Source: Kiritimatiellia bacterium (lineage in GTDB: Bacteria > Verrucomicrobiota > Kiritimatiellia > RFP12 > UBA1067). From it: 64,000 bases of DNA. The notes below the pieces were generated by a model. The model worked only from the letters and a program-made list of their open reading frames with translations. It was not told where the DNA came from and made no database searches. The DNA lies in assembly GCA_017450695.1 (NCBI GenBank), contig JAFSTA010000047.1:1-64000 (forward strand), written 5' to 3'. The first letter of the stretch is position 1, and each line of letters begins with the position of its first letter. A program made the position numbers and the translations under genes. Below are positions 1-55,837 of the stretch, in pieces.

Positions 1-139
1 GCGGCAGAAAACTGATTCACCCAAATGGTGAAAGTCCGGCTTCTTCCGGAATGCCGATATTCTTCCTATCCAGCCTTCATTTCTTTGTGATCTCTGTGAT
101 CTTTGTGGCTCAACAAAAATCTCAACAGAGGATTTTAGG
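1..139 (-). mobile_element. Partial type-M element, cut by the window edge
   Basis: The right boundary carries the M-type end (AGAGGATTTTAGG, ending at 139). Inside are the TTCACC/GGTGAA palindrome found in other M copies (around 15-34) and a nonamer array of three exact 9-nt units at 82-108 (TCTTTGTGA, TCTCTGTGA, TCTTTGTGG). The other end lies outside the window or is lost. I see no coding sequence here. Confidence 0.55.
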
Positions 140-384
140 TTCATTCAACGCGCGGGCGAGTTAGCCCGCGCACCTTCTACATGGTTGTTCTCGATGTTGT
201 CTCTGTTGTTTCCCAATCCTCATCTATAGTTCCGAGCGAGGCGTTCGGGGAAGCGGCACCCCTGCCGCTTCATTCTGTCCTGTTGCCCCGCGAAGCGGTA
301 AATCAACGTCCCTTTCGTGATGGGGAGTTTGGGAGGCTTGGAGAACAGCTACCCCTGTCTCCGACAACTCCGGGACTCCCCGTA
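140..384. repeat. Composite repeat: nonamer array plus REP-like hairpin
   Basis: A nonamer array lies at 184-210 (GTTGTTCTC, GATGTTGTC, TCTGTTGTT) and is followed by an AAGCGGCA/TGCCGCTT hairpin at 251-270. The stretch 184-300 is a degenerate direct copy of about 5909-6020. A short open frame crosses it, but the sequence is explained by the repeats, so no gene is called. Confidence 0.7.
251..270. repeat. REP-like hairpin, family B
   Basis: AAGCGGCA and TGCCGCTT form a perfect 8-bp stem around a 4-nt loop, preceded by CGTTCGGGG. The same core recurs in both orientations elsewhere in the window. Confidence 0.75.
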
Positions 385-858
385 GGGCGCATCTGTATGA
401 TTCAACCTAAATTCCGCTGTTGGACACTTTGAAAAAACACGGAAACCACGGAAAAACATCGGTTTCTTGGAACGGCGATTCCGTAAGTTCCGTATATCCC
501 GTGGTGAATCATGGCGCTTTGGAATTGTTCAGACTTTCACCATTTGGGTGAATCCGTTTTCTGTCGTAACGTATGTGCGGGGGATCGAAAGGCCTCTGTT
601 TCCGGCACTTTCTCCGTGTACTCTGCGGTCTCAGCGCCTCTGCGTGAGAACCCAGACGAGGAATCTAGGTTCAACAAAGGTTTGCTGTGTTCAAACACAG
701 AAGTTTTCATGTCATGGCCTCACGCCAAGTTCGCCAAGTACGCGAAGTGGCCGACTTCCTTCCCTTTGCGAACGTTGCGGACTTTGCGTGAGGTTCAATC
801 TCCGCGTTCGGTATCGCAGGCATCTACTTGGATCACGGTGAAAAACGCAGATGCGCCC
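385..858 (+). mobile_element. Type-H element interrupted by a type-M element
   Basis: The ends are GGGCGCATCTG (385-395) and CAGATGCGCCC (848-858), a perfect 11-bp terminal inverted repeat. Without the M insertion (406-669) and the extra TTCAA copy, about 205 bp remain. That remainder matches 50879-51074 in inverted orientation. Its interior has two complementary nonamer arrays: CACGCCAAG, TTCGCCAAG, TACGCGAAG at 721-747 and CTTTGCGAA, CGTTGCGGA, CTTTGCGTG at 764-790. The flanks of this copy show no matching target duplication. Confidence 0.8.
406..669 (+). mobile_element. Type-M MITE-like element inserted in type H, TSD TTCAA
   Basis: The left end CCTAAATTCCGC (406-417) and right end GAGGAATCTAGG (658-669) are imperfect inverted repeats. 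TTCAA lies directly on both sides (401-405 and 670-674). The inverted H copy at 50879-51074 has a single TTCAA at the matching point (51054-51058), so it is the empty site. The interior holds ACGGAA-type and TTCCGT-type units near 436-507, a TTTCACC/GGGTGAA palindrome near 528-543, and the array CTCCGTGTA, CTCTGCGGT, CTCAGCGCC, TCTGCGTGA at 612-647. It encodes no credible protein. Confidence 0.85.
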
Positions 859-885
859 CGGCATTCAAAAGTTTGAAATTCGTGC

Positions 886-914
886 TTTTCATTGGTGCGT
901 TGGTTTGCTATACT
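886..914 (+). promoter_or_regulatory. Promoter of tRNA-Arg
   Basis: TTTTCA (886-891) and TATACT (909-914) are separated by 17 nt, with TGC just before the -10, giving an extended -10 element. The -10 ends 14 nt before the mature tRNA. Confidence 0.65.
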
Positions 915-928
915 AGTGCCTGTTTTTT

Positions 929-1005
929 GCGCCTGTAGCTCAACTGGATAGAGTGACAGCCTCCGAAGCTGTAGGTTGCCAGTTCGACCCTGGCCAGGCG
1001 CACCA
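929..1005 (+). tRNA. tRNA-Arg(CCG)
   Basis: This is a complete cloverleaf of 77 nt. The acceptor stem is GCGCCTG (929-935) with CAGGCGC (995-1001). The seven-base anticodon loop CTCCGAA gives anticodon CCG, which reads CGG. The T arm is followed by discriminator A and an encoded CCA (1003-1005). It has its own promoter and terminator and is not part of a tRNA cluster. Confidence 0.97.
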
Positions 1006-4056: not shown

Positions 4057-4075
4057 TGCCAATTGTCTCGTCTAG

Positions 4076-4220
4076 AACTTCATTGTTCACAAATCTCAAA
4101 TGTTCACAAATGCCAACAAGGTCACAAATCACAATGCCATTTCAATTTGTATTTATGGCAATGATGACAATTGTGCCAATTGTGAACAATCGGAGAAGTT
4201 ATCTGAATCGAATCACTCAC
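4076..4220 (+). repeat. A+T-rich dispersed repeat, copy 1
   Basis: It runs from AACTTCATTGTTCACAA to TTGTGAACAAT and GAAGTTA, so the ends are roughly inverted. The interior repeats TTCACAAAT at 9-10 nt spacing and contains ACAATTGTGCCAATTGTGAAC. Inverted copies lie at 51185-51329 (full) and 55610-55707 (truncated). Its base composition is very unlike the G+C-rich neighbours. Confidence 0.8.
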
Positions 4221-4269
4221 GCAGCGCGTGAGCGGAGGCCAGCAGAGAATTTCGTTTCATTCGGTGATT

Positions 4270-6236: not shown

Positions 6237-6489
6237 CCTAAATTCCTCTGTTAGTTTTCCCAAACAACGGTATTTATCTCACGCAGAGGTGCAGAGACGC
6301 GGAGATTCGGCAAGTTTGTGATTGTTTGCCGTACGGTTTTCGCTTCACCCATTTGGTGAAGAATCGAGCCTTTCTTTTCTCTTCCCAAACTTCGCTCGAA
6401 CCTGCAAAATGCCCCTGTTTTCGGACTCTTCTCTGCGTTCTCTGCGACCTCTAGCGGCTCTGCGTGAGAACCCAAACGAGGAATCGAGG
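6237..6489 (+). mobile_element. Type-M MITE-like element, TSD ATGAA
   Basis: The ends are CCTAAATTCCTC (6237-6248) and GAGGAATCGAGG (6478-6489), inverted with two mismatches. ATGAA occurs on both sides (6232-6236 and 6490-6494). The interior array CACGCAGAG, GTGCAGAGA, CGCGGAGAT (6280-6306) is complementary to CTCTGCGTT, CTCTGCGAC, CTCTAGCGG, CTCTGCGTG (6431-6466). A TTCACC/GGTGAA palindrome lies between. It is closely related to 19480-19730 over its whole length. Confidence 0.87.
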
Positions 6490-19479: not shown

Positions 19480-19730
19480 CCTAAATTCCTCTGTTCCTTT
19501 TACCGGACAACGGATTCGCTCTCTCGCGGAGACGCAGAGACGCGGAGATTCGGCAAATTTGCGGTGGTTTGCCGGGCGGTTTTCGATTCATCCATTTGGT
19601 GAAGAATCGATCCCTTCTTTTCTCGCCCCAAACCCCGCTCGATTCTTCAAAATGCCTCTGTTTTCGGGCCTTTCTCTGCGTACTCTGCGCTCTTGGCGGC
19701 TCTGCGTGAGAACCAAACGAGGAATCTAGG
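19480..19730 (+). mobile_element. Type-M MITE-like element, TSD CTAAA
   Basis: The ends are CCTAAATTCCTC (19480-19491) and GAGGAATCTAGG (19719-19730), with one mismatch between them. CTAAA occurs on both sides (19475-19479 and 19731-19735). The interior matches 6237-6489: the array CTCGCGGAG, ACGCAGAGA, CGCGGAGAT (19523-19549) faces CTCTGCGTA, CTCTGCGCT, CTTGGCGGC, TCTGCGTGA (19674-19709). Confidence 0.88.
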
Positions 19731-50851: not shown

Positions 50852-50878
50852 TGCAGATTTGCCAAGTGGGATTCCCGA

Positions 50879-51074
50879 GGGCGCATCTGCGTTTTTCACC
50901 GTGATCCATGTAGATACCTGCGATACCGAGCGCGGAGATTGAACCTCACGCAAAGTCAGCAAAGGGAAGGAAGGCGGGCACTTCGCGTACTTGGCGAACT
51001 TGGCGTGAGACCATGACATGAAAACTTCTGGGTTTAAACGCGGCAGACCTTTGTTGAATTATACAGATGCGCCC
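50879..51074 (-). mobile_element. Complete type-H element with 9-bp TSD (empty site for type M)
   Basis: GGGCGCATCTG (50879-50889) and CAGATGCGCCC (51064-51074) are perfect 11-bp inverted ends. GATTCCCGA stands directly on both sides (50870-50878 and 51075-51083), a perfect 9-bp target duplication. Inside, CTTCGCGTA, CTTGGCGAA, CTTGGCGTG (50981-51007) and a shorter CGCAAAGTCAGCAAAG part near 50949 form the opposed arrays. There is no room for a transposase. The matching element at 385-858 carries the M insertion. Confidence 0.92.
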
Positions 51075-51184
51075 GATTCCCGACTGTTTGGGATGCAGCC
51101 AACGCCCATCCTTGCTCCTCCAGTACCGATTAACCTAGGTGTGGCTGTCAGCTATTAGCTGTTAGCTCCCCGCTCGCACGTTGC

Positions 51185-51329
51185 ATGAGTGATTCGATTC
51201 AGATAACTTCTCCGATTGTTCACAATTGGCACAATTGTCATCATTGCCACAAATGCAAATTGAAATGGCATTGTGATTTGTGACATGGTTGGCATTTGTG
51301 AGCATTTGAGATTTGTGAACAATGAAGTT
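51185..51329 (-). repeat. A+T-rich dispersed repeat, copy 2
   Basis: This is the inverse of 4076-4220, matching over nearly the whole length, including TATCTGAATCGAATCACTCA outside the AACTTC end. The surrounding 51075-51464 has no gene and shows short TAGCTGTTAGCT-type repeats. Confidence 0.82.
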
Positions 51330-51464
51330 ATTGAAGAGTTTGTAGCGGGTAGCTGTTAGCTTTTAGGCCAGCTTCCTCCATCCTTGCTCATCCGGGCGGC
51401 CGATTTCAAGTCACGTCAGCGACGATAGAATCATTGAACCATTTAACCCAACAGCCGTGCGGTG

Positions 51465-55609: not shown

Positions 55610-55707
55610 TAATTGTCATCATTGCCACAAATACAAATTGAAATGGCATTGTGATTTGTGACATGGTTGGCATTTGTGAACATTTGTGATTTGTGAACAA
55701 TGAAGTT
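55610..55707 (-). repeat. A+T-rich dispersed repeat, truncated copy 3
   Basis: It matches 51205-51329 but lacks the ATTGTGCCAATTGTGAAC-side end. Next to it, 55730-55755 holds a degenerate family-C palindrome, and 55765-55791 a CTAGACGTT, TTAGAACCT, CTAGCCACC array related to 15450-15494. No gene is seen in 55446-55837. Confidence 0.72.
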
Positions 55708-55837
55708 ATAGACGAGGCCGTTGCGCAATCGGTCGCGACGGAGGGCGCCCCTCCCGCATCTTACCTAGACGTTTTAGAACCTCTAGCCACCACCTACCAG
55801 CTACAAGCTACCACCTACCAGCCTACATAGGCAAGGG

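Follow-up and report, generated by a model that had tools for sequence, protein, structure and literature searches.

The stretch of DNA analysed here, referred to as the window, comprises 64,000 nucleotides from a Kiritimatiellia bacterium and is part of contig C215 of a genome of 5.0 Mb in 287 contigs. Near its start lies a repeat, H (385-858), which is interrupted by a second repeat, M. The left arm of H (385..405, plus strand) has an intact left terminal inverted repeat (TIR; GGGCGCATCTGTATGATTCAA plus the C of M) and ends in a first TTCAA (401-405); M, which carries no gene, follows at 406..669 (plus strand; ends CCTAAATTCC and GGAATCTAGG); and the right arm of H (670..858, plus strand) starts with a second TTCAA (670-674) and ends in the right TIR CAGATGCGCCC. 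This is the arrangement of the original prediction, with M inside H and TTCAA on either side. An Rfam search at the site gave no match.

The 9-mers outside H differ, and there is no 9-bp TSD at the window copy: the H-insertion mate of the left 9-mer, CTCCCCGTA (376..384, plus strand), lies on contig C225 rather than at 859, and that of the right 9-mer, CGGCATTCA (859..867, plus strand), lies on contig C255 rather than at 376, as synteny also indicates. A promoter-like site, TTTTCA-17-TATACT (886-914), directly precedes a tRNA-Arg, and the right end of H lies 28 bp upstream of this site (window 858-1005); positions upstream of promoters are a reported insertion spot of some ISKra4 elements (PMC3942029). 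Within M there is a short hairpin, TTCACCATTTGGGTGAA (536-552), and similar hairpins lie upstream of the IS1380-like genes at loci L193 and L241.

The empty copy of H in the window

A second copy of H lies at 50879..51074 on the minus strand between two copies of the 9-bp TSD GATTCCCGA (50870..50878 and 51075..51083, plus strand). We found that this copy has a single uninterrupted TTCAA exactly at the junction, as had been claimed (51054-51058 on the minus strand, TTGAA on the plus strand). The expected good alignment of the two copies was also obtained: when the joined H (205 bp after removal of M and one TTCAA) was aligned with the 196-bp reverse complement of 50879-51074, 183 positions matched, 13 were mismatched and 9 columns had gaps, and the score was 313, compared with a maximum of -79 over 200 shuffles. 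Similarly, TTCAA is present at the junction in nearly all of the 49 empty ends among the 75 left ends catalogued in the genome.

The two copies had been presented as a direct before/after view of a transposition event. This wording is too strong on three counts: the two H copies occupy different positions, and neither is the other's closest relative; the nested H-M-H unit is present at about a dozen sites, the product of earlier amplification; and 385-858 combines halves, left and right, of two different composites. Among H right arms, the tree places the copy on contig C103, which holds another M subtype, as the nearest occupied relative of the empty H. The H copy at 50879-51074 is a paralogous empty site. 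A further repeat, apparently unrelated to H or M, is present at 4067-4235, 51170-51338 and 55611-55725 of the window, in direct and inverted orientation and with 92-93% identity.

The H and M families and their partner elements

H has the TIR GGGCGCATCTG..., exact 9-bp TSDs and roughly 65-75 copies in this Kiritimatiellae MAG, where its end pattern gave 131 matches versus 0 for the reversed control. Its units are mostly 196-207 bp, gene-less, multi-copy and bounded by terminal inverted repeats, as is typical of MITEs. The duplications are of fixed length: exact 9-bp TSDs such as TCGGGAATC, ACTTCCTCT, CGGGCTGCA, CTGCCGAGA and GGCACCGGG were found in this genome and others in relatives, and the chance expectation is 0.5 matches of at least 8/9 over all end pairs. 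Among named genomes, the H TIR is shared mainly by Kiritimatiellae of ruminant guts.

Scanning the first loci for long TIR pairs revealed no autonomous H; this was found only via an ISKra4 search. In relatives, 1.8-kb elements carry an ISKra4-like transposase between the same 22-bp TIR and have a 9-bp TSD: L220 (111-1915, TSD CCGCGTTTT), L223 (1404-3179, TSD ATTGCTTAT, gene decayed) and L219 (928-2731, at a contig end). L220 and L223 provide the autonomous counterpart of H within the same GTDB family, outside the window's genome; in the window's genome itself, we found no intact ISKra4-like transposase and only a decayed piece in C13. The partner transposases scored 148.6 and 148.8 bits, below the NCBIfam equivalog cut-off of 205 for NF033572, and ISKra4 is still their best family (E 2.8e-43). 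Hence, they represent a divergent branch, and we label them ISKra4-like rather than ISKra4 family proper.

The p-MULT elements, which include the ISKra4 group, have inverted repeats of 18-39 bp and direct repeats of 8 or 9 bp (PMC3942029). H resembles the ISKra4 group (p-MULT 4), which is prokaryotic Mutator-like, in its 22-bp TIR starting with GGG and its 9-bp TSD, and its autonomous relatives encode an ISKra4-like transposase of 438 aa as in that group; unlike the insertion sequences of the group, H has no gene (PMC3942029). H is therefore most readily interpreted as the MITE of an ISKra4-like element, with putative trans-mobilization. In related genomes, H-ended elements also enclose GxxExxY gene pieces (L178 1501-1854, L132 300-883 and L171 889-1397); the piece in L132 matches PDDEXK_3 (PF13366) at 2.5e-15, and L178 has a near-perfect 9-bp TSD (8 of 9), whereas L132 and L171 have none.

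M is likewise a short, gene-less, multi-copy MITE with terminal inverted repeats. Its ends (CCTAAATTCC / GGAATCTAGG) follow CCTARATTCC, it is flanked by 5-bp AT-rich TSDs, and at least 43 matches were found (397 candidates at first look). Perfect 5-bp TSDs, within the 4-5 bp range, flank about ten distinct full-length copies and include TTCAA, TTGAA, TTTAA, ATGAA, ATGAT and CTAAA, with a preference for TTNAA-like pentamers. Two solo copies lie in the window, at 6237..6489 (plus strand, TSD ATGAA) and 19480..19730 (plus strand, TSD CTAAA).

An IS1380-like element of a relative in the same GTDB family, L193 (1114-2955, TSD TTGAA), has the ends CCTATAGTCCTCTGTT and CCTAAAATCCTCTGTT and corresponds to M in both ends and TSD type, as an autonomous partner would. 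One end of L193, CCTAAAATCCTCTGTTG, is also the start of a second M subtype, which lies on the reverse strand at window 1-145. The L193 transposase scored 86.8 bits against PF13701, above the cut-off of 34.7, and 154.3 bits (E 3.7e-45) against NF033539, below the cut-off of 180. Searching the window's genome with PF13701 gave no IS1380 transposase, and no intact IS1380-like transposase matching M was found there; the end of C198 has a truncated gene with different ends. L190 and L191, the loci strongest for PF13701, were rejected as partners of M, as neither has a convincing CCTARATTC end pair.

Comparison with ISEcp1 (IS1380 family), which generates 5-bp repeats, points the same way: its ends CCTAGATTCTACGT and ACGTGGAATTTAGG resemble the M ends CCTAAATTCC / CCTAGATTCC, and both have a 5-bp AT-rich TSD (PMC7864471). 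Unlike the IS1380 family, M has no gene, and the transposase of its partner L193 is under the NF033539 cut-off. M is probably a MITE of an IS1380-like insertion sequence, with trans-mobilization again putative. The prediction that both repeats are mobile units was borne out, since each has its own TIR, its own TSD length and its own transposase family identified in relatives.

Nested copies across the genome

We searched the genome for occupied and empty sites, as had been proposed, using a catalogue of 75 left and 66 right H ends. At the TTCAA, 49 of the 75 left ends are empty, 12 have M, and 14 are variant or unrelated. A right end with an identical 9-bp flank was found for 10 of the 12 occupied left ends. 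Two composites lie within one contig stretch, on C103 (flank AGAAGTATC) and C286 (AAGCTGAGA). The other eight are split pairs: C39/C100 (AAGCTTACG), C99/C112 (ATTACTCTG), C108/C44 (GTGACTTGG), C191/C223 (TCCCCGATT), C215:79715/C34 (GGCATGTTG), C221/C281 (ACATCCGTT), C215:385/C225 (CTCCCCGTA) and C255/C215:858 (CGGCATTCA). The composite on C143 (AGCCCCATT) was paired by eye, its right end being absent from the catalogue, and C156/C246 (CAATCGGTG) matches with a one-base shift. The halves of the eight pairs are apart because the assembly breaks inside near-identical composites; with most composites split across contigs, the interiors were read in part, and for C34 and C223, which are short right halves, M was seen only on the left.

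M also occurs at a second point of H, with ATGAT in C1 and C14 and also in C172, which lacks the right side. A third element lies in H in C211, C48 and C202/C210. The third element (L071 1501-1946, L063 1074-1522 and L069) lies between GTTATTCC and TATTCCCC in these three H copies of the genome, and an exact 9-bp H TSD flanks two of the carriers, C211 and the C202/C210 pair. In addition, several H copies have a common outer flank: C57, C117, C206, C278 and C7 form one set and C131, C189, C202 and C269 another (shared flanks GCAGGCCCT / GCAGCCCCT; ATGAATTGA). Hence, these H copies apparently lie inside larger repeats that have themselves multiplied.

By their 9-bp flanks, the two sides of the window copy have swapped mates, the left pairing with C225 and the right with C255. 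In G001, a genome of the same genus, the gene at the end of C255 and the first gene of the window have orthologues (89% and 91%, respectively) that are neighbours on contig C3, separated by 821 bp that include a tRNA-Arg. Hence, at least ancestrally, the sequence that starts at 859 has its place next to C255, and that of 1-384 is elsewhere. The corresponding gap in G001 is not a clean empty site: an H-type end lies there a few bases from the same point. We conclude that 385-858 is a hybrid whose left and right halves come from two different composites.

Such a join could reflect either recombination between composites within their near-identical M sequences or a switch made by the assembler. 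We lean slightly towards the latter, in which case 385-858 would be absent as such from the cell: beyond the pairing of the outer 9-mers with C225 and C255 and the gene order in G001, many contigs end 140-141 bp into the repeat, resembling a k-mer limit, and the window, C255 and C225 are identical over 500-575. However, bases found only in the window copy flank 500-575 to the left and right (399G, 437A, 591G, 615C and 617T), which would fit a real recombinant as well.

Composites at different sites share changed junctions, AGGGTCAAC occurring in several and the junction of CAAGGAA with TCAAC in both C143 and C225. The occupied copies cluster in the H right-arm tree (4 label changes compared with an average of 10.2 after shuffling); leaving C103 aside, the M elements of the composites are mostly 90-99% identical and always in the same orientation. 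In C103, by comparison, M has just 68-74% identity to every other M compared, and its H groups with the empty H of the window (support 96/80). Hence, M hit this TTCAA at least twice. Apart from C103, one nested unit appears to have reached about 11 sites, with transposition of H as the most likely route, and from these comparisons the nesting would predate a round of amplification.

Movement of the composite by transposition, which we infer, has to be weighed against gene conversion between H copies, by which M would have entered H elements already in place. This would leave the old 9-bp TSDs just as they are, and H copies are near-identical. However, only about 21 bp of H remains to the left of M, which is little for homologous exchange, and the whole H right arm of the occupied copies forms its own cluster; we regard gene conversion as unlikely.

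Still less probable is that M entered each of about 12 H copies independently at the same TTCAA hot spot and that the composite never moved. The preference of M for TTNAA-like pentamers, the two or more independent hits at this TTCAA (C103 versus the rest) and the presence of M at a second H point in C1, C14 and C172 all fit a hot spot; however, the junction changes shared between sites, the single orientation throughout, the identity of M outside C103 and the clustering of the occupied H arms make independent insertion at every site improbable. A scheme in which H-M-H came first and short H was derived from it by exact loss of M through the flanking TTCAA copies is refuted in practice. A deletion spanning 5-bp direct repeats would indeed produce the empty form, but solo M copies with 5-bp TSDs of their own exist elsewhere, M occupies further positions in other H copies, and most H copies, across diverse subfamilies, are empty.

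Taken together, we give a probability of roughly 0.8 to the reading that H and M are unrelated MITEs, that the M-in-H composite is mobile and has spread, that a second, independent hit occurred and that the window copy is a hybrid. In this sequence of events, H would be moved in trans by an ISKra4-like (p-MULT 4) transposase acting on the 22-bp TIR and producing the 9-bp TSD, and M by an IS1380-like transposase acting on the CCTARATTC ends and producing the 5-bp AT-rich TSD (TTCAA, TTGAA, TTTAA). The TTCAA at the inner edge of the H left TIR would have been a suitable target, into which M inserted. With the duplicated TTCAA and the first C of M, the outer 22-bp H TIR remains intact, a plausible reason why the nested unit could keep transposing. 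The composite of about 450-475 bp would then have transposed to about 11 sites; separately, a different M subtype would have inserted at the same TTCAA of another H, that on C103; and two composite halves would have been joined, in the cell or in the assembly, into the window copy.

Relation to known elements

Like H and M, bacterial MITEs and mosaic non-autonomous elements such as TIMEs are small, gene-less and multi-copy, with mainly the ends shared with an autonomous partner, and elements of this kind can form larger non-autonomous units (PMC3852290, PMC4133298). The present case differs in that a MITE lies inside a MITE of another family and the nested unit is itself multi-copy. In a 2024 review of prokaryotic MITEs (PMC10969869), the terms 'nested', ISKra4 and IS1380 were all without a match, and nothing direct was found in the literature on nested bacterial MITEs or on MITEs of Kiritimatiellota. 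H and M belong to known kinds, the uncommon part being a MITE-in-MITE amplified as a unit; the case as a whole is known in kind and unusually well documented.

A broader and rather doubtful idea is that H-type elements are the prokaryotic counterparts of Pack-MULEs, being Mutator-like and gene-less, taking up DNA and amplifying with the passenger. The passengers that suggest it are M at several points, the third element (N) and the GxxExxY / PDDEXK_3 gene pieces in relatives.

Matching 9-bp TSDs across contigs pairs broken MAG ends (e.g. C39/C100, C151/C43 and C106/C105) and is a route to scaffolding; it also reveals hybrid joins, including the one at the window start. For the organism, a member of a rumen Kiritimatiellae lineage, the results describe two MITE families of high copy number, each linked through its ends and TSD with a family of transposases, and a nested unit able to go on spreading because its outer ends survived the insertion of M.
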